Origin: Lewinella sp. 4G2
GTDB taxonomy: Bacteria; Bacteroidota; Bacteroidia; Chitinophagales; Saprospiraceae
NCBI RefSeq assembly: GCF_001625015.1
Contig: NZ_LVWJ02000014.1
Coordinates: 2,542,001-2,606,000 of the forward strand
Direction of reading: 5' to 3'
DNA length: 64,000 nucleotides
The position numbers and the translations under genes were made by a program. The stretch's first letter is position 1; each line of letters opens with the position of its first letter. This document shows positions 1-61,858 of the stretch, piece after piece. Under the pieces are notes generated by a model that was given only the letters and a program-made list of their open reading frames with translations, was not told the DNA's origin and did no database searches.

Positions 1-742
1 TGCTGAAATTGAGGGAACCGCGCACGTCTCCCGGTAGGCTGAATACCACGCTACCCGTATCCGCAAAGTCGTGAAAGTCCTCGTGGTTCTGGTTGGCGAA
101 GCGGGCGAAGTCGATCGTCGGCTCTCCGAAACCCCAGCAGAGGAGATCAATAAAGTGAGCGAACTGGGTGTAAAGGACGCCCCCGTCCAACTCCTGGTGC
201 CCGTGCCAGGGGTGAGGCATTCGATCCGTGGGCGCTGCCGCGGGTGCCGGGTCCGGGACCGAGTAATACCGGTGGTCCCGATTCCAAAAACAGTCCAGGT
301 GGACCTGGAGGACCTTACCCAAGCGCCGTTGATCGAGCAGGGACTTAAGCCAGGCGGAGGCGGGGCTGTATCGATTTTGCATTACGCCGAAAACTTCCCT
401 CTCACTCTTCCGGGCAGCAGTTGCGATCCGTTCCGCATCCTCCGTAGTGAGGGCGATGGGCTTTTCAATTACGACGTGGAGGCCGGCTTCCAATGCCGCT
501 ACGGCTTGGTCAGCGTGTAAGCCATTGGGCGTGCAGATGCAGGCGACGTCGAACTGGCCAGGTCGGGATAAAGCTTGTTCAAGGGAAGGGTAGTGGGTGG
601 TCCCTGCTAACCCGTCGGGCCAGTTCAGGTCAGTAGCTGGCCGGATATCACATACCCCCAGAAGTTGGGCTTCGGGATGGGCGGCAATCAGGGCGGCGTG
701 GCGGCGGCCGATGTGGCCCATGCCTACGACGAGGAACTGTAT
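1..742 (-). CDS. Gfo/Idh/MocA-family NAD(P)-dependent sugar oxidoreductase (3' end outside window)
   Basis: Reading the minus strand gives a Rossmann fold (FLVVGMGHIGRRHAAL), the CTPNGLHADQAVAALEAG segment and the EKPIALT motif typical of this family, so it probably oxidises a nucleotide sugar. It directly follows a WbpD/WlbB-like N-acetyltransferase; in bacteria such pairs make 2,3-diacetamido uronic acids for surface polysaccharide (family knowledge; the substrate is inferred). The frame is open from 799 but has no ATG, GTG or TTG before the glycine-rich loop; the ATG at 721 lies inside that loop and would destroy the fold. The end given here is an ATA codon at 742, a guess. A copy of the window's dispersed 18-base repeat at 230-247 encodes a Pro-Ala-rich stretch in the middle of the protein. 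Confidence 0.85.
   Translation of the reverse strand, partial: MQFLVVGMGHIGRRHAALIAAHPEAQLLGVCDIRPATDLNWPDGLAGTTHYPSLEQALSRPGQFDVACICTPNGLHADQAVAALEAGLHVVIEKPIALTTEDAERIATAARKSEREVFGVMQNRYSPASAWLKSLLDQRRLGKVLQVHLDCFWNRDHRYYSVPDPAPAAAPTDRMPHPWHGHQELDGGVLYTQFAHFIDLLCWGFGEPTIDFARFANQNHEDFHDFADTGSVVFSLPGDVRGSLNFS
230..247 (+). repeat. Dispersed 18-bp repeat, copy 1 (perfect)
   Basis: Exact GGGCGCTGCCGCGGGTGC, followed by CGGGTCCGGGACCG, a longer flank shared with the copies at 29514 and 60938. It lies inside the oxidoreductase gene, where the opposite strand reads PAPAAAP. Confidence 0.85.
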
Positions 743-791
743 TTCTTTTGCCTGTACGATGGTATGAAGTTTGGTGCGAAGGTAAACCGGT

Positions 792-1367
792 TCAGTCGAT
801 TACTACGTGGCAGGTCCCTTTTGTCAATCCGTACTTTTCACCTGCGGCAGCGCAAAATGCGGTGCCGGAAGCGTCAAAGTCTAACCGCTCTCCGGCCTTG
901 CTGACGTAGTAGAGGTGGCGAGCGGGGTTGCCCACCACGAGCGAATAGGGCGCAATGTCTTTAGTGACGACCGAGCCGGCCCCGACCATGGCGTAGTCAG
1001 CGATGGTAGTACCGCAAACGATGACGGCGTTGGCTCCAATCGTGACCCCATCACCCAAAGTGGTAGGTAAGTATTGCCCCCGGCGGTTAACGGCTGAACG
1101 CGGGTTTTTGACGTTAGTAAAAACGGCCGATGGGCCAATAAAAACGTCGTTTCCCGCCGTGACGCCGGTGTAGAGGCTGACGTTGTTTTGCACTTTGCAG
1201 TTACGGCCAAGCGTTACCCCTTCCGCTACGAAAACATTCTGGCCAAGGTTGCAGCGAGCGCCGAGTTGGCAACCGGGCATGAGGTGGCAGAAATGCCAGA
1301 TCTTGGTGCCGTCGCCAAGGCGGGCGCCTTCGTCCACAACCGCCGTGGGGTGAATAAAGATGGCCAT
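792..1367 (-). CDS. Left-handed beta-helix N-acetyltransferase, WbpD/WlbB-like
   Basis: 191 residues. The N-terminus FIHPTAVVDEGARLGDGTKI and repeated hexapeptide turns (for example NVFVAEGVTLGRNCKVQNNV, then TIGANAVIVCG) define a trimeric LbH acyltransferase. The IWHFCH segment and overall length match enzymes that acetylate UDP-2-acetamido-3-amino-2,3-dideoxy-glucuronate for lipopolysaccharide or capsule. The oxidoreductase gene downstream fits the same pathway. Its ATG overlaps the stop codon of the upstream UbiA gene (TGATG at 1365-1369), indicating translational coupling. The C-terminal residues FCAAAGEKYG come partly from a partial copy of the dispersed repeat at 839-853. Substrate identity is inference; fold and family are clear. 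Confidence 0.88.
   Translation of the reverse strand: MAIFIHPTAVVDEGARLGDGTKIWHFCHLMPGCQLGARCNLGQNVFVAEGVTLGRNCKVQNNVSLYTGVTAGNDVFIGPSAVFTNVKNPRSAVNRRGQYLPTTLGDGVTIGANAVIVCGTTIADYAMVGAGSVVTKDIAPYSLVVGNPARHLYYVSKAGERLDFDASGTAFCAAAGEKYGLTKGTCHVVID
839..853 (-). repeat. Dispersed 18-bp repeat, copy 2 (partial, 15 bp)
   Basis: CACCTGCGGCAGCGC matches 15 of the 18 consensus positions. It encodes CAAAGE near the C-terminus of the acetyltransferase, outside the beta-helix core. Confidence 0.6.
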
Positions 1368-2308: not shown

Positions 2309-2313
2309 CGGCG

Positions 2314-2321: not shown

Positions 2322-2396
2322 GGCGGCGCCACAGGATTGTTAGGTCGAATAGCTAAATACTTTTACTCCGGCGGGGCGGCAGGGCGGCACCCCGAC

Positions 2397-3769: not shown

Positions 3770-4624
3770 CTATTCTTCCAGCAGCCTTGCCAGGTGGGTG
3801 TTCCAAAAGTTGAGGCTCCACTTCTGGTTAGCCTCATCCAGTGGGTGCTCCTTCCGAAACTGTAGGGCGGCCCTTGCGGCAGCGATGGCCTTTTCGCGGT
3901 AACCCAGGTATTCGTAGACGTCCATCTTAACGCGGTAGGCGCCGGTAGTGGGCTTGGCGAGTAGTTGTCGGTCAGCGAGCTGCAGCGCAAGTTGAAGGTT
4001 ATTCCGGCTCAGGAGGAGGTGTTCACCAGCCCACGCGTAATTAGCATTTGTGTCAATAGGCATCGTCAGCAACCGCTCAAGGTGTGCGGCAACTTCCGCT
4101 GCGGTGGTCGTTTCGACGGGGAAGCTGATCTGGGTATTGCCCCAGGAAAGGTAGAAGCGGGCATTGTCGGGGATCAGGTCAATGTCTATCGTCAGCGACT
4201 CGTAGTGGCGGGTACTTTTCCTGGCCGGTGTCCTGAATCGGATCACGTCTTTTTGCGGGTCATAGTCGTAAGCGCCGTACATGGCCGTATCCTGATTCAG
4301 GATAACTGTCCAATCGTTCGGGGTGGGGATCGTCAGCAAGCTATAGGTGCCGGCAGCCAGTGGTTGGCCACCCATTTTTACCTCACTGTCAACTTTGATG
4401 GTGGTAGAGTAGCCGGCCCCGGTCCGCCAAACCTCGCCGTAGGGAACCAGGCCACCGAAGATCTCGCGGCCTCGGGCGCTCGGCCTTTCGTACCGCACTT
4501 TGATGGTCGTATTTCCCACCTCTTGCTCGATGGTTCCAAGCGGGCTGGGGGAAGGAAGTTGGGCGCTGACGCGGGTGCCAGGCAATAGGAAGAGGAGGCC
4601 TAAAAGGAAGGGGATCAATTTCAT
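3770..4624 (-). CDS. Secreted DUF2911 domain protein
   Basis: 284 residues. There is a signal peptide (about 1-21, ending VSA) followed by the DUF2911 hallmark: KVRYERPSARGREIFGGLVPYGEVWRTGA, then LAAGTYSLLTIP and DWTVILNQD. The C-terminal third resembles helical repeats (NYAWAGEHLLLSRNNLQLALQLADRQL), a common tail for this family in Bacteroidota. Function is unknown; it is probably periplasmic. A TAACTTG promoter box sits five bases before the ATG. Confidence 0.88.
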   Translation of the reverse strand: MKLIPFLLGLLFLLPGTRVSAQLPSPSPLGTIEQEVGNTTIKVRYERPSARGREIFGGLVPYGEVWRTGAGYSTTIKVDSEVKMGGQPLAAGTYSLLTIPTPNDWTVILNQDTAMYGAYDYDPQKDVIRFRTPARKSTRHYESLTIDIDLIPDNARFYLSWGNTQISFPVETTTAAEVAAHLERLLTMPIDTNANYAWAGEHLLLSRNNLQLALQLADRQLLAKPTTGAYRVKMDVYEYLGYREKAIAAARAALQFRKEHPLDEANQKWSLNFWNTHLARLLEE

Positions 4625-4721: not shown

Positions 4722-4739
4722 GCACCTGCGGCAGCGCCC
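4722..4739 (-). repeat. Dispersed 18-bp repeat, copy 3 (perfect, intergenic)
   Basis: GCACCTGCGGCAGCGCCC in the divergent spacer between the DUF2911 and ATPase genes. The flank CGGTCCC-tca-CCCC resembles the extended flank of copy 1. Confidence 0.85.
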
Positions 4740-7731: not shown

Positions 7732-8835
7732 ATGAAACCGCACTGGCTCGTTGGCCTGGTCCTGTTACCCATCGGATACGTCGCTCGTAAAGTGCGCAAC
7801 GACCCTCAGTTTGGCGCTGGCGCGGGTGCGATGCGAAGGGAGCGGAACAAACGCAAAGAGCGGCCACTCCGTTGGCGAATGGGCGCCTACCGTAACCTGG
7901 AAAAAACCAAACTGCAGGAGGACTTTCGGAGCCTGATGGGAGACTTGGTCGGCTACCTGCAGGCCAAGAATACCCAGCCCCCCAAGGCTTTGCCGATCGC
8001 GGTTGCCAACGCAAACTCCGTTGTGCAGGATGACCGGGATTACCTCACCTGGTACGGCCACTCCGCCCTCCGATTGGAGAGCCACGGCCGGACGATCCTG
8101 CTGGACCCGATGCTGGGTAACTGGGTAGCGCCGGTCCCCTTCCTCGGCCACCGCTTTCCCTACGAAGGCTACAACCCCGTCGAACAGTTGGGGGACATTG
8201 ACCTCATCGTCTATTCTCACGATCATTACGACCACCTCGATTACGATACTTTTCTGATCCTTAAGGATCGGACCAAGCACTTCCTTACGCCACTTGGGGT
8301 AGGGGCCCATCTCCGTGAGTGGGGTGTTCCCGCAGATCGAATCACCGAACTGGATTGGTGGGAATCCGCCGATCTGGCTGGATGCACCTTCACGGCGACG
8401 CCTGCCCGCCACTTCAGTGGCCGCTCGCCGGGGACGCGGAATAAATCACTATGGTGCGGATTCGCCATTCAGACCCCCAAGCACCGGCTTTTCTTCGGGG
8501 GCGATAGCGGTTACGGTCAGCACTTCGCTGCCATTGGTGAGCGACTGGGGCCGTTTACCCTGACGATGCTCGATAGCGGGCAGTACCACGACCGCTGGCA
8601 GAACGTACACATGACGCCGGAAGAGGCGCTGCGGGCGCACGCAGACCTGCAGGGCTGCAATCTTTTGCCAATCCACTGGGGTGCCTTCTCGCTGAGCGAC
8701 CACGCCTGGTCGGACCCCATCGAACGCATCGTGACGGCGGACGAAAAGGGAGATGTCATCAGCCCAATGGTGGGCCAGCGCTTTGACCTCGGGGACCTAG
8801 AAAACTGCAAGTCCGAATGGTGGCGGGAGTCCTAA
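7732..8835 (+). CDS. NAPE-PLD/UlaG-like metallo-beta-lactamase-fold hydrolase
   Basis: 367 residues. A hydrophobic, basic N-terminus (MKPHWLVGLVLLPIGYVARKVR) suggests membrane attachment. The metal site is the YSHDHYDHLD motif (HxHxDH), followed by ARHFSG, FFGGDSGYG and a late PIHWGAF. WYGHSALRLESHGRTILLDP is typical of the N-acyl-phosphatidylethanolamine phospholipase D / L-ascorbate-6-P lactonase branch. A lipid phosphodiesterase role is possible but inferred from the family only. Confidence 0.85.
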   Translation: MKPHWLVGLVLLPIGYVARKVRNDPQFGAGAGAMRRERNKRKERPLRWRMGAYRNLEKTKLQEDFRSLMGDLVGYLQAKNTQPPKALPIAVANANSVVQDDRDYLTWYGHSALRLESHGRTILLDPMLGNWVAPVPFLGHRFPYEGYNPVEQLGDIDLIVYSHDHYDHLDYDTFLILKDRTKHFLTPLGVGAHLREWGVPADRITELDWWESADLAGCTFTATPARHFSGRSPGTRNKSLWCGFAIQTPKHRLFFGGDSGYGQHFAAIGERLGPFTLTMLDSGQYHDRWQNVHMTPEEALRAHADLQGCNLLPIHWGAFSLSDHAWSDPIERIVTADEKGDVISPMVGQRFDLGDLENCKSEWWRES

Positions 8836-14529: not shown

Positions 14530-16329
14530 CTAATTCTTGCTCTTTTGTTTGCGCAGTTTGCGGGTGGTCTTGCGCTTGTTTTTGGTAGTGATGTAGACGG
14601 CCCCGTCAAAGCCCTGGAGACCATCTCGGTCCAGTTGTTCACGGTCTTTCACGACGGTAATGGAAAGGATATCGTCCGGGTTGACGAACTTAAGACCGGG
14701 TGTTGGTTCGACGCGAGTTCCGTGCAGGAAGTAGGCAATGTTTCCTTCCTCCACGCCACGGATTTTTATGGGGGACGACTTTTCTTCTTTGAGCATTTTG
14801 CGGACCCCATCCTTTGTCGTCACGTCCACGAGGCCTTCGTATTCCTCAAACCCGAGCGCACGCAGGCTTTCCTTATCCTTGGTGATATCGATTTGCTCAA
14901 TGCGCTGTGCGTCGAGGTCATTCAGGCTCATTTCCTTCATCACTACGCCGTCAATCCGAATCACCACGTTTTCAACGTTGGTGCCGCTGGTCCGGACTTG
15001 CACATTGGTTACTGTCCCGGAGGCATCGAGTTCCAGCGTTTCCCGGTCCTCGTTATCAATTTCAAATTCCTCCGGTTTGATCGTATCCAACGCTACTTCA
15101 GCGGGCGCTGCCGCGGGTGCGGGGGAAAGGGTAGGGGTGGCGACGACGGTGGGTATGACTTCCTCCACGGTGACGGGAACAGTGGCTGGTGGTGGGGTTG
15201 CCGCAGGGGGATTAACCGGTTGGGCTTCCTCCGTTGGAAGGACATCCAAGTCGTTAAGGGCAATGATCTCCGGCAATGGGGTGACTACCGGTTTATCTTC
15301 TTGCAAACAATTCACGGCACCTGCGGCAGCGCCCGCTTGCTTCAGTGGGAATTGAGTGATAGCAAGCGTAAGCAGGAATAGGGCCGACAGGGCAAAGCGG
15401 CCATCCTTCGGCGCGCGGTCGCCGTTGAAGAGGCGGTGAATACGGAAGGTGAACGGGGTTTTAGATGCGCTCATGGCAAGGGGATTTGAGGTGTAAGAAA
15501 ATTGGGCCGCCGCCACCAGCGCGGAGGCGTAAGTACGGCGATCGGAACACTGGCGGGCAACCCAGTCGTCACAACGGTGCTCTCGCTCGCGGTCAATAAT
15601 GCGGCAGAGGGCGTGGACGGCGGGGTGGTAGAAAAACAGCACGCGCAAGACTTGCTGTGGGTAATTCAGGAGGTGGTCGTAGTGGCGGACGTGGGCCAAC
15701 TCGTGCAATAGCAACGTGCGCGCCATCTCCGGGCTGATCTGATTAGCGAGGGCCACCGGCACGACGATGATGGGGGACCAAAATCCGACGGTCATCACCT
15801 CCGTAGCTACTGAACTGAGGTGCAGGCTAACGGTACGGGTAAGCGGGTGAGCCTCGAGAATTGGCCGAATGGAAGATTGCCAGGCAGCCGGCATTTTGCT
15901 CAGGCCCGTGCTACGCAAGCGCTGAATTTCCTGGTGTTTGCGAAACAGTAAAAACGCCGCGGGCAACAGGCCGATCAGGTAGCAAAGGCTCAGCCAGGGG
16001 GTGAAGACCGTGAAGTTAGACGAAAGCTCACTTGGCGGCGTCGTAGTGCTAGGGCTAACGGACATAGAGAATACTTCCGGTGGGGGCGCCAGCAGCAGGT
16101 TTTCGCAAATGGGCGCTACGTAATAGGTATCGTAAAAGGCGTACGCAGACCCAAATCCAACAGTTAGCAGCCCCACGTAAGCCAGGAAGTACCGACCGGA
16201 AGCGGTTGGGAGCAGCGGCGCGATCGTCCGAACCAAGACGTACACCAACAGGCCGATCCAACAACTGTGGAGCAGCGTGAAACCGAAGGCGGAGGCCAGT
16301 GGCAGTAGGGTAGTTGTCAGGTCAGCCAT
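14530..16329 (-). CDS. BlaR1-type M56 membrane metallopeptidase with plug-like C-terminal repeats
   Basis: 599 residues. The first 330 hold about four membrane helices and the zinc protease motif HELAH (209-213), with a downstream EREHRCDDW. The tail contains a Pro/Ala/Thr-rich linker and two regions resembling TonB-receptor plug domains (VVIRIDGVVMKE...DVTTKDG and PDDILSITVVKD...AVYITTKNK), a common layout in Bacteroidota M56 proteins. By family analogy it senses an envelope signal and leads to cleavage of the repressor encoded just upstream. Two copies of the dispersed repeat sit in the tail in opposite orientation, encoding PAPAAAP and AGAAAGA. Confidence 0.9.
   Translation of the reverse strand: MADLTTTLLPLASAFGFTLLHSCWIGLLVYVLVRTIAPLLPTASGRYFLAYVGLLTVGFGSAYAFYDTYYVAPICENLLLAPPPEVFSMSVSPSTTTPPSELSSNFTVFTPWLSLCYLIGLLPAAFLLFRKHQEIQRLRSTGLSKMPAAWQSSIRPILEAHPLTRTVSLHLSSVATEVMTVGFWSPIIVVPVALANQISPEMARTLLLHELAHVRHYDHLLNYPQQVLRVLFFYHPAVHALCRIIDREREHRCDDWVARQCSDRRTYASALVAAAQFSYTSNPLAMSASKTPFTFRIHRLFNGDRAPKDGRFALSALFLLTLAITQFPLKQAGAAAGAVNCLQEDKPVVTPLPEIIALNDLDVLPTEEAQPVNPPAATPPPATVPVTVEEVIPTVVATPTLSPAPAAAPAEVALDTIKPEEFEIDNEDRETLELDASGTVTNVQVRTSGTNVENVVIRIDGVVMKEMSLNDLDAQRIEQIDITKDKESLRALGFEEYEGLVDVTTKDGVRKMLKEEKSSPIKIRGVEEGNIAYFLHGTRVEPTPGLKFVNPDDILSITVVKDREQLDRDGLQGFDGAVYITTKNKRKTTRKLRKQKSKN
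15104..15121 (+). repeat. Dispersed 18-bp repeat, copy 4 (perfect)
   Basis: Exact GGGCGCTGCCGCGGGTGC inside the M56 gene; in the gene's sense it reads PAPAAAP in the linker. Confidence 0.85.
15317..15334 (-). repeat. Dispersed 18-bp repeat, copy 5 (perfect, inverted relative to copy 4)
   Basis: Exact GCACCTGCGGCAGCGCCC, 196 bases from copy 4 in the same gene but opposite orientation; in the gene's sense it reads GAAAGA. Confidence 0.85.
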
Positions 16330-26228: not shown

Positions 26229-26750
26229 ATGAAGCTACCTTACTTTCTCTTCCTATCCGCCGGTCTGTTGGTCTTCGTTGCTTGCCAAAACAACCCGGAA
26301 CCCGCGGCAGCGCCCGCTGCTGAAAATGGCGCGGTGGCTGACGTAGAAGCCATCGCAAAATCCCTTCTTGGGACCTGGGAGACCGTGGAGGTCGACGTGC
26401 TTTTCCACTCCTACGAAAACCGGGATACGAGCTTCCGCCAAACCATCCGTGAAGCCGACTGGGGGCAGGTGTTCGGCGTGAAACCCGCCCGCACCGAATT
26501 CACCGCCGACGGTAAGCACAAGCGTACCCACCGGATGGAGAACGGGTCCGTGGCCGACATCACCAATGGCGTCTGGAAAGTGAAGAGTACCGACAGCCTA
26601 CTGGTGATCGAACCCAACAAAACGCTGTATTACGCCCACGAAATGAAGGGTGACCAGCTCATTCTGACGGGCTTCGTCGACTACGACTACGACGGGGAAG
26701 CGGACGATGAATACCGCTCCGTCATGCGCCTCGTCAGCCGGACCCAGTAA
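26229..26750 (+). CDS. Lipocalin-like lipoprotein
   Basis: 173 residues. MKLPYFLFLSAGLLVFVACQNN has a lipobox (VFVAC, Cys19). A Pro-Ala-rich linker made by a copy of the dispersed repeat is followed by a small beta-rich domain: SLLGTWETVEVDV...EFTADGKHKRTHRMENGSVADITNGVWKVKSTDSLLVIEP...DQLILTGFVDYDYDGE, resembling lipocalin-like families of Bacteroidota. Ligand unknown. The glycosyltransferase gene starts one base after its stop, so the two are an operon. Confidence 0.75.
   Translation: MKLPYFLFLSAGLLVFVACQNNPEPAAAPAAENGAVADVEAIAKSLLGTWETVEVDVLFHSYENRDTSFRQTIREADWGQVFGVKPARTEFTADGKHKRTHRMENGSVADITNGVWKVKSTDSLLVIEPNKTLYYAHEMKGDQLILTGFVDYDYDGEADDEYRSVMRLVSRTQ
26298..26315 (-). repeat. Dispersed 18-bp repeat, copy 6 (17/18)
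   Basis: GAACCCGCGGCAGCGCCC encodes EPAAAP in the linker right after the lipidated cysteine. Confidence 0.8.
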
Positions 26751-28458: not shown

Positions 28459-29669
28459 TTGCTGTAGCCCTTCTTTTTGAGCTGGCGCTTCACGCTGCTT
28501 TTCATACGTTCGCCGAGGGTGTTTTCTTCCGTTTCGGCGAGGTCTTTTTTGGCGTCGGCGACGAAGCTTTCGCGTTGCTCGCTGAGTTCGGCGAGGCGTT
28601 GTTTCAGCTCGTTGCGCTTCTGGGCGAGGTGGTCGATCTTGGCGGTGAGTTCGGCGTCGCTCAGCGTCCGGAGGCTATCGGGCAGGGCACCTTTTTGTTC
28701 CAGGATCTTTTTGTTGTCGGCCCGGGCGGCGTCGACTAGGTCCCAGCTTTCGTTCTTGTAATTTTTGCTGGCCTTGTACTTGGCGCGTGAGCTGAGGTTG
28801 GCCTTGCTGTAGCTGGTGGCGTTGGCGTCCTCCACCGCGAGGCGTTGCTTTTTCGCGACGGCGGCCTGGTTGATGGGTACGTAGGTGTCGTTCAGCTGGG
28901 CGTTCAGTTGTTCGATCGGCGCGTCGTAGGGGGATTCCACGTAGGCGACGGCCTGGTCCTGATTAATCGAGAAGTGGTCCCCATCCAGGCGGGTGGCGGC
29001 GGAAGCCCAGAGGCGGGCCTCGCCATCGTTCGGATTATTACAGTAGATAGTATTGACGACGATGCCCTTATCCTGCGCGGCCTTCAGCCCGGCGGACATG
29101 GCGACGGGCCCCTGGGTGAATTCTTCGTTGCCGGCAATGTAGAGCAGTTTTACGGTGGCGTCATCGGCGTCCCACATCAGTTCCTGGGCGGCGCGCTGGA
29201 TGGCCATGGGGCAGTATTCGTCGCCACCGGAAGTCGTAAGGGCAAACAGTTTTTCACTGATCTCGTCCACCTCCGTCGTCATGGGCACGATCATTTTGAT
29301 GTAGCCATTATTGGCGGAGAGCCGGTCGTTGCCGTATTCGTAGAGGGCCACTTCGATGTCGGGTGCGACGCCATTGCGGGTTGATTCCATGGTTTCGTTC
29401 AGGATGTTCCACAGCCGTGCCTTGGCCTGGTCGATGAGCCCTTCCATCGAACCACTGGTATCCAATAAGAAGGCGATCTGGATCTTATTATTGGATGCAT
29501 TCACCGTCGTAGTGGGCGCTGCCGCGGGTGCCGGGTCCGTAGGGGGAGCGACGTAAGTTGGGTTGGGGACCGAGCTCGTACCCAGTAGGTAATGGCTGAT
29601 ACCGAGGAACAAAACGGTTGCGGAAAGTGCGGCGGCCAGCAGCCAGCGAAAAGTGGAAGAAAAAGGCAT
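28455..29669 (-). CDS. Membrane-anchored von Willebrand factor A domain protein
   Basis: 404 residues from ATG 29669. One N-terminal membrane anchor (WLLAAALSATVLFLGISHYLL), a Pro-Ala-rich linker (partly the dispersed repeat), then a VWA domain with the metal-binding DTSGSMEGL motif. The C-terminal third is charged and coiled-coil-like (LTAKIDHLAQKRNELKQRLAELSEQRESF), ending SSVKRQLKKKGYSN. VWA domains mediate metal-dependent protein contacts in the periplasm; the partner is unknown. A longer frame to 29873 lacks signal character. Confidence 0.85.
   Translation of the reverse strand: MPFSSTFRWLLAAALSATVLFLGISHYLLGTSSVPNPTYVAPPTDPAPAAAPTTTVNASNNKIQIAFLLDTSGSMEGLIDQAKARLWNILNETMESTRNGVAPDIEVALYEYGNDRLSANNGYIKMIVPMTTEVDEISEKLFALTTSGGDEYCPMAIQRAAQELMWDADDATVKLLYIAGNEEFTQGPVAMSAGLKAAQDKGIVVNTIYCNNPNDGEARLWASAATRLDGDHFSINQDQAVAYVESPYDAPIEQLNAQLNDTYVPINQAAVAKKQRLAVEDANATSYSKANLSSRAKYKASKNYKNESWDLVDAARADNKKILEQKGALPDSLRTLSDAELTAKIDHLAQKRNELKQRLAELSEQRESFVADAKKDLAETEENTLGERMKSSVKRQLKKKGYSN
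29514..29531 (+). repeat. Dispersed 18-bp repeat, copy 7 (perfect)
   Basis: GGGCGCTGCCGCGGGTGC followed by CGGGTCCG, the extended flank also seen at copy 1. In the VWA gene's sense it reads PAPAAAP. Confidence 0.85.
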
Positions 29670-29897: not shown

Positions 29898-31334
29898 ATG
29901 CGGATCTACTTCTTCCTTTTGTTAGCCCTCATCTCCTTCGCCCTGCCGGCGCAAAAGGAGAAACTGTCGCGTTCGCGGACCCTTCAGAAGGAAGAGCGGA
30001 TTGACCTGTTGCAGCAGGCTACACTTTTGCGGGAGGAGGACCCCAAAAGAGCCATCCAATTGCTGAGTGAACTGATCTACAGCAAACCGGCCGCCGAGGA
30101 ATTGACGGAAGCTTTCACGCTGCTGGGGGATATCTACGGCGATGTCGGTCAGTACGACCTGGCCCTGGAGCGTTACGGTCAGGCGTTGGAGGCTATTCCA
30201 GTCAGGAAAGGGAAGAAATCCACCAGCCCCTTCGCCCCCGCCCTTCACCTCAAGATGGGGGACGGCCACCGCCTTCTCGGGGATAGCAAAATGGCCTGGA
30301 TGAGTTATACCCGTTGTCTTTCCACCGCACCTGCGTACAGCGCCCAAAAACAAACGTGCGAAGAACGGCTGGCCATCCTGGATCGGCTCGGTTCGATCTC
30401 CGCCGAACAAGCGTCCTCGGTTGATGCGGATGCAATTGGCGACCGGCAGGACGGTTATTCGGTATCCACCAAGGCGGACCTGGCGCGTAATTCTCAACTA
30501 CAAGTAGAAGTGCTGCGGGAGCAAAATACCATCGATCTCGGCCTTAAAGACATCGCCGCCGAAGAAGCCGAACTCCGCTACGTGGAGGACCGCATGCAAC
30601 TCCAACAGTGGTTGATTTACCTGCTGGGGCTACTGCTGTTGGGAGCGCTGATCTCCGTAGCCATCATCCTCCGGAACGTGCGCAAGCGCCGCCGGGCCAA
30701 CCAGGAATTGCTGTTGCGGAACCTGCAGACCCGGATGAACCCTCACTTCATCTTTAATAGCCTAAACAGCATCAACAACTACATCGCCCGGCAGGATGAG
30801 CGTTCGGCCAACCGTTACCTCGGCCGCTTCGCCCGGTTGATGCGCAAGGTGCTGGACCAGTCCGGTCGCGATTTCGTCCCCCTCAGCGAAGAGATTGAAC
30901 AGTTGGGGCTCTACCTCGAACTGGAGCAGGAACGCTTCGCCGGGAAGTTTACCTATACCATCGAAGCACCCGCCCCGGAAGACCTGGACGCTGACGACAT
31001 ACTGGTTCCCCCCATGCTCCTCCAACCCTTCGTGGAAAACGCCATCTGGCACGGCCTCCGCTACCGCGATGGTGGTGGAGTGCTGACAGTAGACTTCGGC
31101 CTCGAAGATGGCCGGCCCACCGCTACCATTACGGATAATGGAATTGGCCGTAAGCGGTCCCGCGAACTCAAAACCGACAACCAACTCAAACAGGGGAGCC
31201 AGGGAATGAACATCACCGCCAAGCGGATCGAACTCATCAACGAGCACTTCGGAAAGTCGTTGTCCGTCGACGTCAGCGACGCCTTCCCCGGCGCAGAACA
31301 CGTAGGGACGCGGGTTCGGCTGCAGCTTTCTTGA
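29898..31334 (+). CDS. LytS-type sensor histidine kinase with TPR sensor region
   Basis: 478 residues from ATG 29898. Signal peptide (ends LPAQ), tetratricopeptide-like region (about 30-170), one membrane helix (WLIYLLGLLLLGALISVAIIL) and a PF06580 kinase core: NLQTRMNPHFIFNSLNSINNYI with the phospho-His, PPMLLQPFVENAIWHGL (N box) and ITDNGIGRK with later GMNITAKRIELIN. It phosphorylates the LytTR regulator encoded 92 bases downstream. A variant copy of the dispersed repeat gives STAPAYSAQ in the TPR region. Confidence 0.92.
   Translation: MRIYFFLLLALISFALPAQKEKLSRSRTLQKEERIDLLQQATLLREEDPKRAIQLLSELIYSKPAAEELTEAFTLLGDIYGDVGQYDLALERYGQALEAIPVRKGKKSTSPFAPALHLKMGDGHRLLGDSKMAWMSYTRCLSTAPAYSAQKQTCEERLAILDRLGSISAEQASSVDADAIGDRQDGYSVSTKADLARNSQLQVEVLREQNTIDLGLKDIAAEEAELRYVEDRMQLQQWLIYLLGLLLLGALISVAIILRNVRKRRRANQELLLRNLQTRMNPHFIFNSLNSINNYIARQDERSANRYLGRFARLMRKVLDQSGRDFVPLSEEIEQLGLYLELEQERFAGKFTYTIEAPAPEDLDADDILVPPMLLQPFVENAIWHGLRYRDGGGVLTVDFGLEDGRPTATITDNGIGRKRSRELKTDNQLKQGSQGMNITAKRIELINEHFGKSLSVDVSDAFPGAEHVGTRVRLQLS
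30327..30345 (-). repeat. Dispersed 18-bp repeat, copy 8 (variant with one-base insertion)
   Basis: GCACCTGCGTACAGCGCCC differs from consensus by TA replacing G in the centre. It is coding within the LytS gene; weaker than other copies. Confidence 0.5.
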
Positions 31335-34594: not shown

Positions 34595-34612
34595 ACACCC
34601 GCGGCAGCGCCC
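34595..34612 (-). repeat. Dispersed 18-bp repeat, copy 9 (17/18, intergenic)
   Basis: ACACCCGCGGCAGCGCCC just downstream of the REP-like cluster and upstream of a terminator. Confidence 0.8.
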
Positions 34613-40377: not shown

Positions 40378-40395
40378 GGGCGCTGCCGCGGGTGC
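40378..40395 (+). repeat. Dispersed 18-bp repeat, copy 10 (perfect, intergenic)
   Basis: GGGCGCTGCCGCGGGTGC one base after a TGA stop, followed by AAAGTAAGGA, similar to the AAAG flank at copies 11 and 13. Confidence 0.85.
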
Positions 40396-42118: not shown

Positions 42119-42220
42119 GGACGTATTTGCTCGCCGCGCTCAGGACTCAAAAAGGTAGACCTGACGAGCGTTAGTTGCGAATTCACGAAGTTTGCTGCCC
42201 GTCCACCCGTCATCTCCCTC

Positions 42221-45064
42221 ATGCTTCACCAGTTCCGACAAGTCTGCCTGCTCTGCGCAATGCTGTCACTTTGCCCGGGCAACTCCTCGGCGCAGGCGGT
42301 GGAAGGATATGATATAGATGGTTTTCTACTGGCGCTTAGCTCCGAGAGTGCAGACAACGAGAATGGCCCCTTTGACGTATCGGCGCTTTTGAGCCGATAC
42401 TGCGAGAGCGACTACGCTTGCCAGGTAAGCCTCCTCAAGGCGGGCGCTGACAATTTCAAAAAGGAACACGACTACCTTCCCGCGCTGCTCCTGGCCGAAC
42501 AGTTGGAAAAAGTCGCAACCGAACGGTCGGACGATAGTAATCTGCTGATTGCTCTGAGCGACCAGTCTCACCTCCTCAACTTCTTGCACGACCGGGAAAA
42601 TACACGTTTGGTATTTGCCCGGATGGCCGCACTCTACGAGCGAACGGGGGACGCTGGCCAGTCCTACTACTTTCAGACGCTGGTATTGGAGGGGGATGTT
42701 TTCTATGCCGAAGACCCGTCGCCCGCCATCACCCAAATCGAGAACCTATGGAGGCAGGCCGAAGACGAAGGTTACGAGGAGCAAGCCAACAACATATTAA
42801 CGCGGCTGAAGTACATCTACGAAGAGTTCGGGATGTTTGACCGCTTGGAAGTAGCCGTGAAAAAGCTGGAGGAAATCATCGCCGCCACCCCGGCGAACGT
42901 CCAGAGCCCCTACCGGCTGCCGGCTTACAGCGGAAGGGGAGACCTGCAACGTCGCTTCGGAGACTACCAAGCGGCCGAACGCAGCTACCAGACGGGCCTG
43001 CAGTTTGTACGCCTGCACGACGATGAATTTGGACAGCCTTGGTCCCAGGGCTATCTCCTACTTCGGTTGGCTCACCTGGAATGGGAACAGCACCAGCAGG
43101 AGCAGGCCGTCAATTACCTGGATACCGTCCTGTATCTCGGAACGACCTATCAGCTGGAGGATCTACTGAGCCAACAGTATGAACTAAGGATCGAAATCGC
43201 TGAGTCCGCCGGTGATTACGCCACCGCCTTGGCCTACACCCGCGAACAGAGTGCCCACCAACAGACGATTGATAGCGCCGAAGCTAGCTTCGATCTCCGC
43301 CGCCAGAACTTACAGTTTGCCGTCGACCAACTGGAGGCGGAAAGGCAGAACCAGGAGTTGGAACTAGCACTGGCGAGGAATAATTCACGGAATTACTTGC
43401 TCCTCGGCGGGCTATTGGGGCTGCTCACCCTCCTGCTCGGCGCCGGGTTTTACTACCAGCGCCGGTCAAAAAAGCAACTGGCGGAAAAGAATACCCTCAT
43501 TCAGCAACAGGCCAACCGGCTATTGCGACTGGATGAAACCAAATCAAGGTTCTTCGCCAACGTAAGCCATGAACTCAGGACGCCCCTGTCACTCCTCACC
43601 GGGCCCGTAGACACCCTGCTGCGGGATCCCGACAACCTCACTACTAAGCAACGGGAGTTGTTACGCACGGCGGCAACGGGCGGAGTAAATCTGAGTACCC
43701 TGATTCAAAAGATCCTCGACCTCGGCCGGCTGGAAGCCCATAAAGTAACGGCGCACCCCGTTTCGACCCGGCTGAAGTATTACTTCCAAACTCACCTGCA
43801 ATCCTTTCAGCCGCTCGCCGAGCAGCACCGCATTGATTACTCCTACACAGTGGAGGTGCCCGAGAATAGGCTGGCGGAAATTGATCCGGAGCTTGTCCGC
43901 CAGATCCTGTCTAACCTGATCAGTAACAGCCTCAAATTCACGCCACCCGGCGAGCGCGTGTCCGTCACGGCTCGCCTTACTGATGGGCGTTTGTGCTTAC
44001 GGGTGGCAGATACCGGGCCCGGCGTCCACCCGGAAGATCGCCCCCGTATTTTTGAGCGCTTTTATCAGAGTGAACAGGCGAACGCAGCCGTTGCGGGTGG
44101 CACGGGCATTGGCTTGGCGCTCGTTCGGGAGTACACCCACCTGTTTCAGGGCGAGGTCGCGGTAACTGATACTCCGGGCGGGGGGGCAACTTTTACGGTC
44201 AGTTTTCCGGTCGTTTATGTTGATTCACCACCACCCACTCCAGTACTGGTTAGTGAAGGGGCAACCAGCGAATTTCAATCCAATGGGGCTACGCTCCCGT
44301 GCGTCGTCGTCGTTGAAGACAACGTATCACTTCGAGCTTACCTCGTGACCGAATTGGAGCAGTTCTACCGGGTGAAAGATTTTCCTAACGGCGCGGATGC
44401 CTGGGCCTTTATCCAGCGGGACCCTCAGGCCGTTAACCTCGTCCTCAGCGATTACATGATGCCGGTTATGGATGGGTTTCAGTTGTTGCAGCGGTGTAAG
44501 GAGCATTCACCAACTGCCGGTATCCCCTTCGTCCTGCTAACTGCCCGGGCCGAACCGGAAGACCGGCTAAGCGCGCTGCGGGTAGGGGTAGATGACTACC
44601 TCATCAAGCCCTTCACTACCCCTGAATTGCGTACCCATCTCGATGCGTTGTTGGGTCACCTGAATACCCGGGAAAGCAATCTCACCGAGGAGGACAATGA
44701 TACGGCGCTGCCGCGGGTGCAAAGCAAAGAAGAACGAGCCTGGCTGGAGGAGTTGGAGACCTACGTCAAAGCAAATTTGCACGACTCTCAGTTGAAAGTA
44801 GGCTCCCTGAGTAAAGCCTTTTTGATGAGTGATTCGGCTTTGCTGAGACAGGTCAAACGCCTGACTGGATTAACGATACAGCAGTACATCACCGAACTAC
44901 GGCTGGCCACCGCGCGCCGTTTACTCGAGACGCGTGCGGTGGTTTCCGCCCGAAAAGCCGGGGAAGCGGTGGGCTACGCAAACGTAGGTTCCTTCAACAG
45001 ACGCTTCAAACAACGTTACGGGCGCTTGCCCTCCGATTTACTCGTCGAGCGAGTGAACAAGTAG
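42221..45064 (+). CDS. Hybrid two-component protein: periplasmic TPR sensor, kinase, receiver, AraC-type HTH
   Basis: 947 residues from ATG 42221, whose signal peptide ends SSAQA; the longer frame from 42101 runs through non-coding DNA. Tetratricopeptide-like repeats fill the periplasmic half, then a membrane helix (about 391-411), HisKA with NVSHELRTPLSLL (His near 450), HATPase (ISNSLKFTPPG, VADTGPGV, GGTGIGLAL), a receiver with LVLSDYMMPVMDG (Asp near 744) and KPF, and an AraC helix-turn-helix to the end. It joins outside sensing to transcription in one chain; no transport or glycan genes are adjacent to suggest the ligand. A dispersed repeat copy encodes part of the receiver-to-HTH linker. 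Confidence 0.94.
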   Translation: MLHQFRQVCLLCAMLSLCPGNSSAQAVEGYDIDGFLLALSSESADNENGPFDVSALLSRYCESDYACQVSLLKAGADNFKKEHDYLPALLLAEQLEKVATERSDDSNLLIALSDQSHLLNFLHDRENTRLVFARMAALYERTGDAGQSYYFQTLVLEGDVFYAEDPSPAITQIENLWRQAEDEGYEEQANNILTRLKYIYEEFGMFDRLEVAVKKLEEIIAATPANVQSPYRLPAYSGRGDLQRRFGDYQAAERSYQTGLQFVRLHDDEFGQPWSQGYLLLRLAHLEWEQHQQEQAVNYLDTVLYLGTTYQLEDLLSQQYELRIEIAESAGDYATALAYTREQSAHQQTIDSAEASFDLRRQNLQFAVDQLEAERQNQELELALARNNSRNYLLLGGLLGLLTLLLGAGFYYQRRSKKQLAEKNTLIQQQANRLLRLDETKSRFFANVSHELRTPLSLLTGPVDTLLRDPDNLTTKQRELLRTAATGGVNLSTLIQKILDLGRLEAHKVTAHPVSTRLKYYFQTHLQSFQPLAEQHRIDYSYTVEVPENRLAEIDPELVRQILSNLISNSLKFTPPGERVSVTARLTDGRLCLRVADTGPGVHPEDRPRIFERFYQSEQANAAVAGGTGIGLALVREYTHLFQGEVAVTDTPGGGATFTVSFPVVYVDSPPPTPVLVSEGATSEFQSNGATLPCVVVVEDNVSLRAYLVTELEQFYRVKDFPNGADAWAFIQRDPQAVNLVLSDYMMPVMDGFQLLQRCKEHSPTAGIPFVLLTARAEPEDRLSALRVGVDDYLIKPFTTPELRTHLDALLGHLNTRESNLTEEDNDTALPRVQSKEERAWLEELETYVKANLHDSQLKVGSLSKAFLMSDSALLRQVKRLTGLTIQQYITELRLATARRLLETRAVVSARKAGEAVGYANVGSFNRRFKQRYGRLPSDLLVERVNK
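44703..44720 (+). repeat. Dispersed 18-bp repeat, copy 11 (17/18)
   Basis: CGGCGCTGCCGCGGGTGC, followed by AAAG. It is read in a different codon register from the other coding copies, giving ALPRVQ in the linker of the hybrid kinase. Confidence 0.8.
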
Positions 45065-45383: not shown

Positions 45384-45401
45384 GCACCTGCGTGAGCGCC
45401 C
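45384..45401 (-). repeat. Dispersed 18-bp repeat, copy 12 (16/18, long form, intergenic)
   Basis: GCACCTGCGTGAGCGCCC followed by AACTC and about 35 more bases that align with the flank of copy 15 at 61841, so the pair forms a roughly 55-base longer repeat. Confidence 0.7.
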
Positions 45402-51318: not shown

Positions 51319-52560
51319 TTACTTACCGAGCATGGCCAAGTATTCAGGGTGTTTACTGTCCGTCGTTCCGGCGGCCTTGATGTAGGGCGCCGCCGTATCG
51401 GCCATCCCCTTTTTTAAATAAAGAGATGCCATCATTCTGCTCACGTCAATATTTTCCGGGCGTTTTTTATATTCCCGTTCGGCGTAAACGATAGCCTTAT
51501 CGTAATCCTCAAAATGATCGCGATAGAGCGCGGCGTATTCCAAATCCATGTTGTGCCCGGAATCTACGTCGTCCTGCAGCATCACGAAAATTTCATCTTC
51601 AATCTTCTCTGTTTTCTCTTTTTGGTTAGTCTGTTTGTAAATCTCGGCCAGTTGAATGTAGTAACCTACTTCCGGGATAATGTCAGCGGCTTCTTGAACG
51701 AGCATTTCGGCTTCCGGGTAATTTCCCTTATCCAGTTCTAGCTGACCGAGTGCGGCAATGGCGAAAGGATAATTCGGACGTTCCCGAAGTATGATTTCAA
51801 ATTGCTTTTTGGCCGCTTCTTCATCACCGTATCGTTGGTACAATTCACCAAGGGTAAGCCTGGCCCAGGCCGAGCTTTCGTATCCTGGCGCTCCCGCTTT
51901 GACCGCGCTGATCATAGCCTCTTTAGCGCCCACCACGTCACCGTGAATTTCACGCAAGTAGGAAACCCGGCTGTAAGACCGCAGATCCGGGCGGATCTTC
52001 ACCATTTTATCGGCGGCTGCCACGGCTTCGTCGTAGCGCCCCAGCTCAACGTTGACATCAACTAGCGCTCCGTAGATTTGCGCATTGTGCGGGTTGATTT
52101 CAATGGCCCGATTCGCCGTTTGAAGCGCCTCTTTGAACTCGTGCTGCGAAAGCTGAACGCCGGCCTTGGTGGAAAGGGCAAGAAACTCGAGATTTGTGTC
52201 TTTTCCTCGATTTAAGTCGAGCGCTTCGTTGACCATTTTTAAGGCGGCTGGGTAATAATGGCCGTGTTCACCGGTCACCCGGGCTTCGTTTACGAAGATT
52301 TGCGCCAAAGTTACGCGGGGTTTAATGGCCTTTGCGTCTTTTAAACGTAAGTCGCTAGCCAGTTGCATATATCCACTTTGGGTCCTGTCCCATTCCATCG
52401 CATTCTGCAAGGCGGCGGGGCGGGGTAGGAGTTCGGGGATTTCCACGTCATTGATGCCGGCGCTCTTTTCCTCATCTTTACCTGGGGCGCTGTCGCAGGT
52501 GCAAAGGAAAAGGGAGCACAGCAGGAGTATTGAGAAGGGGGAAATTATTGATTTTATCAT
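51319..52560 (-). CDS. TPR-repeat lipoprotein
   Basis: 413 residues. The N-terminus MIKSIISPFSILLLCSLFLC is a lipoprotein-type signal with candidate lipid cysteines 20 and 22 (FLCTCDSAPG). Tetratricopeptide repeats follow (for example FKEALQTANRAIEINPHNAQIYGALVDVNVELGRYDEAVAAADKMVKIRPD and NYPEAEMLVQEAADIIPEVGYYIQLAEIYKQ). It is likely a scaffold facing the periplasm. The codons around the lipobox are formed by a dispersed-repeat copy. It is downstream of the DUF4331 pair in the same direction. Confidence 0.85.
   Translation of the reverse strand: MIKSIISPFSILLLCSLFLCTCDSAPGKDEEKSAGINDVEIPELLPRPAALQNAMEWDRTQSGYMQLASDLRLKDAKAIKPRVTLAQIFVNEARVTGEHGHYYPAALKMVNEALDLNRGKDTNLEFLALSTKAGVQLSQHEFKEALQTANRAIEINPHNAQIYGALVDVNVELGRYDEAVAAADKMVKIRPDLRSYSRVSYLREIHGDVVGAKEAMISAVKAGAPGYESSAWARLTLGELYQRYGDEEAAKKQFEIILRERPNYPFAIAALGQLELDKGNYPEAEMLVQEAADIIPEVGYYIQLAEIYKQTNQKEKTEKIEDEIFVMLQDDVDSGHNMDLEYAALYRDHFEDYDKAIVYAEREYKKRPENIDVSRMMASLYLKKGMADTAAPYIKAAGTTDSKHPEYLAMLGK
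52485..52502 (+). repeat. Dispersed 18-bp repeat, copy 13 (17/18)
   Basis: GGGCGCTGTCGCAGGTGC followed by AAAG; in the lipoprotein's sense it reads CTCDSAP in a third register. Confidence 0.75.
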
Positions 52561-60726: not shown

Positions 60727-61748
60727 TTCAGCACGACGTCAGCCTGCGGGGGCTCAACACTTTTGGCCTGCCATCCGTGGCGGAATCCTACCTGCCGTTG
60801 CGTGATCTCGCGCAACTGGAAAGTCCTCATTTTCGCACTACGCCGGCTCTCGTACTCGGCGGGGGTAGCAATCTCTTGCTCCGGGAAAACGTGCCCGGTC
60901 TCACCGTCCACGTCCTGCTCGGGGGCGTACAAGAATTAGGCGCTGCCGCAGGTGCCGGGTCGGGGACCGGAACGGACGTCCACCTCCGGGTGGGTGGGGG
61001 AGTGGATTGGAACCAACTCGTCCGCTATACGTTGGACCAAGGTTTGGCGGGGATGGAAAACCTCGTCCTCATCCCCGGGACGGTCGGCGCGAGCCCGGTT
61101 CAAAACATCGGTGCCTATGGTGCTGAGGTGGCCGACTTGATCACCGCCGTCCACGTCTGGGAATACGGCCACGGCGCCCGCACCCTCCGACCGGATGAGT
61201 GTGACTTTGGCTACCGGGATAGCCGCTTCAAGAAAGAACCGGGACGTTTCCTGATCACCGCCGTTGACTTCCGGTTGCAGCGGAATGCGTCTTCCGTCAA
61301 CACCAGCTACGGCGCCATCATTGCAGAACTTGAGAGGCTAGGCGTTGACCAAGCCACCCCGGCGGATGTTGCGCTGGCGGTGACGAACATCCGGCGGAGC
61401 AAACTTCCCGATTGGTTCTTCCTCGGCAACAGCGGTAGTTTCTTTAAAAACCCGGTGGTGCCCAAGACTACGCACGAGCGTATTCAGCAAGATTATCCGC
61501 AAGCTCCGTCCTATCCCATCGACACCGACCACGTCAAGCTACCCGCCGGTTGGTTAATTGACCGGGCTGGCCTCCGCGGTGCACGGGACGGGCAGGTAGG
61601 GACTTACGCCAAACAAGCACTGGTGATGGTCAACCACGGTGGCGCTACTGGTGAGGATATCCTTGCCTTCAGTTCCCGGGTACAAACGACCGTCCTTGAA
61701 AAATTTGGCGTCAATCTTGAGCGGGAGGTCCGGCTCATCGGAGGATGA
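60723..61748 (+). CDS. murB: UDP-N-acetylmuramate dehydrogenase
   Basis: 341 residues. HDVSLRGLNTFGLPSVAESYLPL, LVLGGGSNLLLRENVPG (FAD loop), GMENLVLIPGTVGASPVQNIGAYGAEV, ECDFGYRDSRFKKEPGRFL and a late GNSGSFFKNPVV (catalytic Ser) match MurB; the C-terminal Glu is in NLEREVRLIGG or nearby. It reduces UDP-GlcNAc-enolpyruvate to UDP-MurNAc for peptidoglycan. Compared with E. coli MurB, the loop before LRVGGGVDW is longer by about seven residues (GAAAGAGSGTG), and that extra segment is a dispersed-repeat copy with its flank. It overlaps the ABC gene by four bases. Confidence 0.94.
   Translation: MIQHDVSLRGLNTFGLPSVAESYLPLRDLAQLESPHFRTTPALVLGGGSNLLLRENVPGLTVHVLLGGVQELGAAAGAGSGTGTDVHLRVGGGVDWNQLVRYTLDQGLAGMENLVLIPGTVGASPVQNIGAYGAEVADLITAVHVWEYGHGARTLRPDECDFGYRDSRFKKEPGRFLITAVDFRLQRNASSVNTSYGAIIAELERLGVDQATPADVALAVTNIRRSKLPDWFFLGNSGSFFKNPVVPKTTHERIQQDYPQAPSYPIDTDHVKLPAGWLIDRAGLRGARDGQVGTYAKQALVMVNHGGATGEDILAFSSRVQTTVLEKFGVNLEREVRLIGG
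60938..60955 (+). repeat. Dispersed 18-bp repeat, copy 14 (17/18)
   Basis: AGGCGCTGCCGCAGGTGC followed by CGGGTCGGGGACCGG, the same longer flank as copy 1. It encodes LGAAAGAGSGTG inside murB. Confidence 0.85.
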
Positions 61749-61840
61749 CTTAGCCGTACCGGCCTTTTAATGGAGGCGCTCCTATTGCCGTTAGCATCGA
61801 ATCAAGGCTGATGTTTAATCCCCTGAGCCCCCATCACCTG

Positions 61841-61858
61841 GCACCTGCGGCAGCGCCC
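61841..61858 (-). repeat. Dispersed 18-bp repeat, copy 15 (perfect, long form, intergenic)
   Basis: GCACCTGCGGCAGCGCCC followed by a flank (to about 61896, with a second GGCAGCGCCCAA at 61884) that aligns with that of copy 12. It lies between murB and the LysE-like gene. Confidence 0.85.

Follow-up and report, generated by a model that had tools for sequence, protein, structure and literature searches.

Why should one 18-bp sequence recur throughout a stretch of bacterial DNA, in genes and spacers alike? The question is raised by the window analysed here, 64 kb of a 5.21-Mb genome of the genus Neolewinella (Bacteroidota; G000, the source genome). We describe the copies and their abundance, their taxonomic limits and dialects, their conservation between species and their arrangement on the two strands, and then weigh what may read them.

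Copies in the window and in the genome

Allowing up to 3 mismatches, the 18-mer is matched 16 times in the window, 9 times on the plus and 7 times on the minus strand; 100 dinucleotide shuffles gave 0.30 matches on average and never more than 2. They are given below together with one spacing variant.

230..247, plus: motif core, perfect match to the 18-mer
838..855, minus: motif core, 3 mismatches, within hexapeptide-repeat protein gene (792-1367, minus)
4561..4578, plus: motif core, 1 mismatch, close to the 5' end of DUF2911 gene (3770-4624, minus); convergent with 4722
4722..4739, minus: motif core, perfect, spacer; forms a convergent pair with 4561
7812..7829, plus: motif core, 2 mismatches, in beta-lactamase-superfamily fold gene (7732-8835, plus)
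15103..15120, plus: motif core, perfect, in M56/BlaR1-like gene (14530-16329, minus); convergent with 15317; absent from 9 aligned congeners
15317..15334, minus: motif core, perfect, in the same M56/BlaR1-like gene; motif-like in all 10 genomes in which the gene was found (G000 and 9 congeners)
26298..26315, minus: motif core, 1 mismatch, close to the 5' end of ORF 26229-26750 (plus)
29514..29531, plus: motif core, perfect, in VWA-domain gene (28455-29873, minus)
30327..30344, minus: +1 spacing variant GGCGCTGTACGCAGGTGC
34595..34612, minus: motif core, 1 mismatch, spacer
40378..40395, plus: motif core, perfect, spacer right behind the stop of ORF 39495-40376
44703..44720, plus: motif core, 1 mismatch, in histidine-kinase-like gene (42101-45064, plus)
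45384..45401, minus: motif core, 2 mismatches, spacer; the corresponding spacer of G019 carries the motif on the same strand
52485..52502, plus: motif core, 1 mismatch, in TPR protein gene (51319-52560, minus), covering its lipobox-like region (CTCDSAP)
60938..60955, plus: motif core, 1 mismatch, in an indel-rich loop of murB-like gene (60723-61748, plus); the corresponding place in G019 carries that species' own dialect
61841..61858, minus: motif core, perfect, spacer

The dispersed repeat reported by the first-pass annotation is therefore real, and was understated: the source genome contains 454 perfect 18-mers (224 plus, 230 minus) and none of the pattern read backwards. All seven copies that it called perfect are so, one of them after a shift of its start from 15104 to 15103. 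Seven of its eight imperfect copies also stand (838, 26298, 34595, 44703, 45384, 52485 and 60938); the eighth, at 30327, is not recovered at 3 mismatches and is the +1 spacing variant. Two copies, at 4561 (1 mismatch) and 7812 (2 mismatches), had been overlooked.

The site consists of an asymmetric 18-bp core, of the form GGGCGCTG-C-CGC[A/G]GGTGC, followed on its 3' side by a graded tail of about 19 bp that is rich in purines. The variant at 30327 reads GCACCTGCGTACAGCGCC, or GGCGCTG-TA-CGCAGGTGC in reverse complement, and copies so spaced are rare among those sampled from G000 (1 exact copy against 111 normally spaced). The shorter string GGCGCTGNCGCRGGTGC occurs 888 times genome-wide (445 and 443 by strand; control 0), and the core has 80 exact matches in 464 kb of the source genome, while one order-3 Markov simulation gave none. 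Shuffles, reversed control and simulation together reject chance or base composition. The density is 0.22 copies per kb of sampled genome. No homology between copies was seen beyond core and tail, and a longer repeat as the unit was accordingly rejected. An RNA family scan of the window returned only tRNA.

The motif occurs in coding and intergenic DNA, with spacers above their share: 97 of 141 G000 sites lie in genes and 44 in spacers, which make up 15.4% of bases by a rough gene call. Among 116 in-gene sites on the strand opposite to the gene, 49 fall in the first fifth of the gene and 6 in the last. The earlier view that DNA rather than a peptide is kept is borne out by the use of both strands, several registers, and genes as well as spacers.

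Genus limit and species dialects

The motif marks the genus Neolewinella: its general form has 92-1022 matches in 18 of 21 genomes of the genus and 0-8 in 99 genomes outside it. The whole-genome count proposed in the first-pass annotation thus lies far above control, and the motif is no codon string common to distant genera, the other outcome that would have spoken against a DNA-level signal.

Dialects differ between Neolewinella species. Searches without a fixed pattern recovered the G000 motif as top k-mers and found dialects in nine congeners (G005, G014, G001, G002, G009, G011, G012, G013 and G015). In several species a first such search picked up codon periodicity or tandem repeats instead; when repeated with a stricter threshold, it showed no such motif in G004, G006, G007, G016, G017, G019 and G020, and the forms given for remaining species come from a model that took the general form as its seed. 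Two divergent dialects were counted genome-wide. That of G001 has 235 matches (reversed control 0), and that of G011 has 75, with 0 in the other 20 genomes; 63 of these 75 sites were typed, single-site contigs being omitted, and the lists partly overlap the sampled stretches. In some congeners (G007, G015) the motif is weak.

Conservation of sites between species

Orthologous places were compared in G009 and G012 over 25 records, the unalignable record B12987 being set aside. A80440 and B19701 are one site recorded twice, so that the 25 records represent 24 sites. The motif is present in both species in 17 records (16 sites). Gaps contain or adjoin five of the eight one-species records, among them a 21-nt gap beside B82398. 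One-species sites are not clearly products of point mutation, and because so many of their records touch gaps, some may have arrived by insertion or recombination. Over all 25 records the core is not clearly better kept than its flanks (conservation 0.681 versus 0.605, core higher in 18 of 25); for the 17 shared records the values are 0.855 and 0.68, a difference partly built in by the selection of records.

Two species-specific islands of about 7 kb, one each in G009 and G012, carry no site, where only about 1.3 and 1.6 would be expected (derived from 29 and 22 sites). GC content is unusual in the G012 island and ordinary in that of G009. Between the source genome and G019, whose synteny ends about 1 kb beyond the window, the murB site is found in each species' own dialect. 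The site at 52485 is motif-like in these two genomes and not in the other 14 species aligned.

Same-orientation exclusion

Copies in the same orientation exclude each other at short range, up to about 2.5-4 kb, and copies in opposite orientation do not. Pairs of sites were analysed in 15 species, that is, all but G007, G015, G016 and G020, whose models are weak, and the unsampled G003 and G010. Below 1 kb, only 5 of 92 pairs share an orientation (permuted mean 44.9), below 2.5 kb 40 of 215 (105.4), and below 4 kb 91 of 343 (168.1, the lowest of 2000 permutations being 132). Control patterns give same-orientation fractions of 0.45-0.53. With the simple pattern, 11 of 66 pairs at 1-2.5 kb share an orientation. 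At 2.5-4 kb the range depends on how sites are called: model-called sites give 0.60 of the expected same-orientation pairs, whereas the simple pattern gives 38 same and 37 opposite. This short-range exclusion is, as such, a new finding.

Orientation alternates along G000, in 94 of 123 neighbours against 61.9 expected; three species with weak motifs show no alternation (G015 7/16, G016 9/19, G020 13/26). Convergent pairs below 1 kb are enriched 2.6, 3.1, 1.3 and 2.2 fold by bin, and at 100-600 bp they number 31 against 5 divergent ones; divergent pairs above 1 kb stand at 0.6-1.3 of expectation. The interiors of close convergent pairs appear unrelated by eye. Plus and minus counts differ by no more than 2 in each sampled G000 locus. 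A polarity over megabases had been suggested by contig C14, seemingly plus only, and was discarded, the sampled C14 stretches carrying both strands.

A candidate uptake sequence

On balance, we infer that the motif serves as a DNA uptake sequence for self-recognition, comparable to the DUS of Neisseria and the USS of Haemophilus; like these, it is strongly over-represented genome-wide in both orientations. A surface or periplasmic receptor would read the motif on incoming DNA, and same-species DNA would thereby be preferred and passed to ComEC. Copies would accumulate by molecular drive, because motif-bearing fragments would be imported and recombined more often, and drift in receptor specificity would lead to dialect change. 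The strand rule would be explained if import began at the motif and proceeded one way for a few kb: within that reach, a second copy pointing the same way would be redundant and gain no drive, and an opposite copy would serve the other direction or strand. Neither an uptake sequence nor a strand rule figured among the readings of the first-pass annotation.

The ComEC domain is found in 21 of 21 Neolewinella genomes and also in 10 of 14 control genomes; being common, it proves little. Type IV pilus ATPases were sought and gave partial matches only: hits to the T2SSE family are short and partial in 20 of 21 genomes, just over the cut-off in 11 of 21, and are read as probable cross-hits of other ATPases. 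Since they are no better than this, the known pilus-borne receptors are not simply to be assumed. Nor is the strand rule a known mark of uptake sequences, because USS uptake is reported to be orientation-independent (PMC1939737). A more specific proposal, which we put forward tentatively and with some doubt, is that of a polar uptake code outside both known families, in Bacteroidota and with no clear type IV pilus ATPase. The orientation of the motif would set the direction of import, or the strand imported, over about 2.5-4 kb; the copies would form two self-spacing strand sets, and rapid dialect turnover would act as a species barrier.

Other explanations

Another reader of the same polar motif could be a nucleoid or loop-forming protein, with opposite, often convergent neighbours bounding small domains. 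The genome-wide spread, the orientation alternation and the enrichment of convergent pairs below 1 kb agree with such a chromosome-organising site. Known sites of this kind, such as parS or matS, are however strongly conserved, whereas the present motif shifts between congeners, is weak in some and is missing from both 7-kb islands, for which few copies would be expected; divergent pairs above 1 kb are not consistently avoided either. We regard this explanation as unlikely. Marginally less credit goes to a different polar DNA-processing site, be it Chi-like, a nicking, export or gene-transfer packaging signal acting one way over a few kb. Asymmetry and same-orientation exclusion over 2.5-4 kb are what it would predict, but Chi and KOPS are about 8 bp long and follow the replication strand, while our motif is balanced between strands both overall and locus by locus, and fast dialect change is unexpected of a core repair site. 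For the strand rule alone, recombination between close direct repeats might delete the intervening DNA and so purge them, inverted repeats being tolerated. This accounts for the loss of same-orientation pairs without a polar reader; yet imperfect repeats of 18-35 bases give rise to deletions at a low rate that declines with distance, the exclusion is still strong at 1-2.5 kb, and the preference for convergent over divergent pairs at 100-600 bp is left unexplained. Here too we judge the explanation unlikely.

One of the readings offered by the first-pass annotation, a mini mobile element, would be an inserted repeat, possibly with target immunity spacing its copies. The gaps in or beside which five of the eight one-species records lie, including the 21-nt gap at B82398, are in its favour. 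It fits poorly with 17 of 25 records being shared by two species, with dialects that differ genome-wide, with the lack of homology outside core and tail and of any palindrome beyond the motif, and with an exclusion that is orientation-specific; close convergent pairs, their interiors being unrelated by eye, do not look like element ends. Viral spread was also rejected, a viral scan having given 28 contigs with one match each. We consider a mobile element improbable. Protein constraint or base composition alone might be suggested by Ala/Gly/Pro-rich translations in fairly GC-rich genes, but is refuted by the counts, 454 against 0 for the reversed pattern, and by the excess of intergenic sites and the several frames and both strands in which the motif is read; its probability is negligible.

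Abundant, dialect-bearing uptake sequences are established in Neisseriaceae and Pasteurellaceae, and it is still debated whether molecular drive or mate choice explains their evolution. If the uptake reading is true, such sequences would have arisen a third time, independently and in a distant phylum, and the 21 Neolewinella species with their several dialects would serve as a natural replicate; the reach and direction of import from a site could then be read from the genome through the strand-specific exclusion zone. If it is not, the strand rule points to a hitherto unknown polar reader of chromosomal DNA.

Comparison with known systems

As a short dispersed repeat, the Neolewinella site resembles REP/REPIN, HIP1 and Rickettsia palindromic elements. 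These are palindromic or longer mobile elements, HIP1 being a short palindromic octamer, whereas the present site is asymmetric and has no internal element; the earlier statement that it is not HIP1 agrees with its asymmetric 18-bp core.

The core of USS is asymmetric and adjoined by a weaker one-sided tail, and the Neolewinella site is likewise asymmetric with a one-sided tail. It differs from USS in its unrelated sequence, its purine-rich tail, dialects that vary within one genus, and the strand rule. Reverse-complement USS are reported to be biased to gene 5' ends (PMC2346458), as are the reverse-complement copies here (49 in the first fifth against 6 in the last, n=116).

With the DUS of Neisseriaceae the motif shares its great number of copies, which lie in genes as well as spacers and on either strand, and the existence of dialects. 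DUS dialects with a common core are described as tracking phylogeny (PMC3630211). DUS spacing is reported to match the length of conversion fragments, with a mean distance of about 1,150 bases in meningococci, and, as the title of a supplement states, DUS are under-represented in strain-specific insertions (PMC2397512). DUS are shorter (10-12 bp) and denser than the 18-bp core with tail, at 0.22 per kb, and the Bacteroidota host is without clear PilB/PilT ATPase; we found no description of same-orientation exclusion for DUS. Within Bacteroidota, the k-mers listed in the available part of a study on Riemerella columbina are all A/T-rich and no longer than 10 bases, with no motif of the Neolewinella kind among them (PMC7965970). 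In that species competing own DNA nevertheless reduces transformation more than foreign DNA does (PMC7965970), a preference for own DNA in the same phylum as Neolewinella.

Abundance and anatomy of the motif

With up to three mismatches allowed, the 18-mer GGGCGCTGCCGCRGGTGC is matched 16 times in the window against 0.30 expected from dinucleotide shuffles. The genome-wide count proposed in the first-pass annotation bears out its claim of a dispersed sequence: the 5.21-Mb genome of the window (G000) carries 454 perfect copies, 224 and 230 by strand, and no occurrence of the reversed control, the same pattern read backwards. The 17-bp core GGCGCTGNCGCRGGTGC is found 888 times in this genome (445/443 by strand; control 0). 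Fourteen of the 15 window sites originally listed were located with their start correct to within one base; the remaining one, at 30327, is a +1 spacing variant, and copies at 4561 and 7812 had been overlooked.

An alignment of 108 copies with 0-2 mismatches, drawn from the window and other sampled parts of G000, defines an 18-bp core of near-maximal information except at three softer positions (the first G, the ninth C>A and the thirteenth, A or G). It is preceded by 4 bp that are weakly A/T-rich and followed by a purine-rich 3' tail, N-R-R-G-T-A-A-G-G-G-G, which fades out about 19 bp past the core; no shared sequence was detected beyond core and tail in this alignment. Matches with 0, 1, 2, 3 and 4 mismatches number 55, 31, 22, 8 and 22 in the G000 window and samples, so that the majority of copies lie near the consensus. 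The refined model places 141 sites in 644 kb of G000 (0.22 per kb). According to our own rough gene call, 44 of them occupy spacers, which make up 15.4% of bases, and 97 are genic, on both strands and in several reading frames, as had been noticed from the window.

Species dialects and taxonomic range

When no fixed pattern was given, the motif or a relative was the leading k-mer in G000 and was also recovered in the congener genomes G001, G002, G005, G009, G011, G012, G013, G014 and G015; this pattern-free search did not recover it in G004, G006, G007, G016, G017, G019 and G020. Species-specific forms, or dialects, came from a model whose seed was the general form, except that G001 and G011 had seeds of their own; the models are weak for G007, G015, G016 and G020.

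Dialects of the motif in the genus
GGCGCTG-CGC: G000
GGCGCGG-CGC: G019, G002, G005, G006, G014
GGGCGGGG-CGC: G012; G009 mixed
GGGCGGGGaCGCaGGAGC: G017; similar in G004
GGCGGCGGAGCGCAGGTA: G001 (own seed)
TTTTG-CTAACAAAGTAGCAATG: G011 (own seed)

The G001 form has 235 matches in its own genome (reversed control 0), 57 in G007, 53 in G015 and 0-30 in the remaining genomes of the genus. The AT-richer word TTGNCTAACAAAGTAGCAA of G011, the most divergent congener, occurs 75 times there in near-equal orientations and is absent from the other 20 genus genomes; from its layout we infer that it belongs to the motif system, possibly as a far dialect, or it may be a separate system. A spacing variant, GGCGNCGGAGCGCAGGT, accompanies the main dialect in G002 (30), G006 (24) and G015 (53), as if both were tolerated.

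Other repeats are present as well. Tandem arrays of 7-8-bp units are abundant in samples of G000, G002, G004, G007, G011, G017, G019 and G020, the unit differing per species (AGTCTAT/AGACTAT and GAGTTGC in G000, ACTAAAAG in G007, GTAGTTCG in G020). The motif search also revealed a second repeat family in G019 stretches L048-L051, with 32 similar 36-bp stretches, TACTACATTACGCAGGATACGAGCTTTAC, in 80 kb.

The general core form gives 92-1022 matches in 18 of the 21 genus genomes (reversed control at most 34) and 0-8 in 99 genomes outside the genus. Across GTDB representative genomes, a scan matched at least 118 stretches; the matches listed include Neolewinella agarilytica, N. aurantiaca, N. lacunae and Lewinella sp. 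IMCC34183, along with single matches in many unrelated, mostly GC-rich genomes. G014 has sequence in common with the N. aurantiaca SSH13 record, and we take the genus of the carriers to be Neolewinella (Lewinellaceae, Bacteroidota). Searches of the open-licence PMC literature listed no report of the motif in Lewinella or Neolewinella, nor of a comparable uptake sequence in Bacteroidota.

The strand rule

Copies in the same orientation are rare near each other. Neighbouring sites are oppositely oriented in 94 of 123 pairs in G000 (61.9 expected; reached by 0 of 4000 permutations) and in 63 of 100 in G019 (50.5 expected, P 0.0075); with fewer sites, 12 of 15 other species lean the same way, and G015, G016 and G020 have no lean. 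When every pair of sites in 15 species is counted, those in the same orientation reach 0.00-0.33 of the expected number across the four bins below 1 kb; the ratio is 0.24 for distances of 1-1.5 kb, 0.48 for 1.5-2.5 kb and 0.60 for 2.5-4 kb, and is about 1 farther out. Opposite-orientation pairs beyond 1 kb remain at 0.6-1.3 of expectation; below 1 kb, convergent pairs are enriched 2.6, 3.1, 1.3 and 2.2 fold by bin, with 31 convergent against 5 divergent pairs at 100-600 bp.

With positions held and orientations permuted, same-orientation pairs amount to 5 of 92 below 1 kb (44.9 expected), 40 of 215 below 2.5 kb (105.4) and 91 of 343 below 4 kb (168.1), with z from -8.3 to -9.0. Simple-pattern sites in nine species give same/opposite counts of 5/46 (30 bp-1 kb), 11/55 (1-2.5 kb), 38/37 (2.5-4 kb) and 133/139 (4-8 kb). 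For the two control patterns the same-orientation share is 0.45-0.53 in each distance bin. The rule applies whether both sites are in genes, both in spacers or one in each. The listed genome positions, some of which are also in the samples, give 9 opposite and 3 same-orientation pairs below 2.5 kb.

Retention at orthologous positions

G000 and G019 share about 75% aligned identity over the stretch of the window common to both. Each has a motif copy in its own dialect at one and the same position of murB; among 20 aligned species the full motif is present there in G000, G019, G006 and G005, variant or decayed in G002 and absent from the rest, within an indel-rich loop.

Window features compared among species
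14530-16329 (-): gene in which an M56/BlaR1-like peptidase domain is combined with a C-terminal region weakly matching a TonB-dependent receptor plug; both of its motif copies are located between these parts or next to them
15103: copy in the M56 gene, in G000 only (G000 and nine congeners compared)
15317: copy in the M56 gene, motif-like in 10 of 10 genomes having the gene (G000 and nine congeners)
52485: lipobox-like site, motif in G000 and G019, absent from 14 other species aligned

G009 and G012 have about 97 kb in common, with 25 judgeable records representing 24 sites. The motif is in both species in 17 records and in one in 8, 5 of which lie within or adjoin gaps. Identity over all records is 0.681 in the core against 0.605 in the flank (core higher in 18 of 25); in the 17 shared records it is 0.855 against 0.68, a difference partly built in by record choice, and in the 11 records whose flanks are poorly conserved it is 0.485 against 0.427. 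These counts and identities thus establish retention in place and, at best for a few sites, origin by substitution; other copies may have originated by insertion or recombination. Two species-specific islands of about 7 kb, one in G009 and one in G012, contain no motif (about 1.3 and 1.6 expected); GC is low in the G012 island (0.507 vs 0.594) and ordinary in that of G009 (0.599 vs 0.592).

Candidate mechanism and known uptake systems

The observed abundance, asymmetry, dialects and retention would be explained by a DNA uptake sequence, whose trans-acting reader would drift in specificity and whose copies would be favoured by drive or selection through DNA import. Polar import could underlie the strand rule; alternatively, direct repeats lying close together may be purged, or a different polar process may produce the deficit of same-orientation neighbours. 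As for machinery compatible with an uptake sequence, ComEC is encoded in all 21 genus genomes. The matches to the T2SSE ATPase family are short and partial, and we read them as cross-hits; they occur in 20 of the 21 genomes, in 11 barely above the cut-off. In Riemerella, also of the Bacteroidota, transformation is described in part of PMC8459023 as involving ComEC, DprA, ComF, RecA and proteins of unknown function, and a passage of PMC7965970 reports that R. columbina prefers its own DNA.

A reader combined with drive or selection through import is described, in passages of PMC3630211, PMC1939737, PMC2397512 and PMC2346458, for the Neisseria DNA uptake sequence and the uptake signal sequence (USS) of Haemophilus and other Pasteurellaceae. 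Passages of PMC1939737 cite a 1996 analysis by Karlin and others that found even USS spacing, and report USS uptake to be independent of orientation; polarity of import, if it operates here, would therefore be new.
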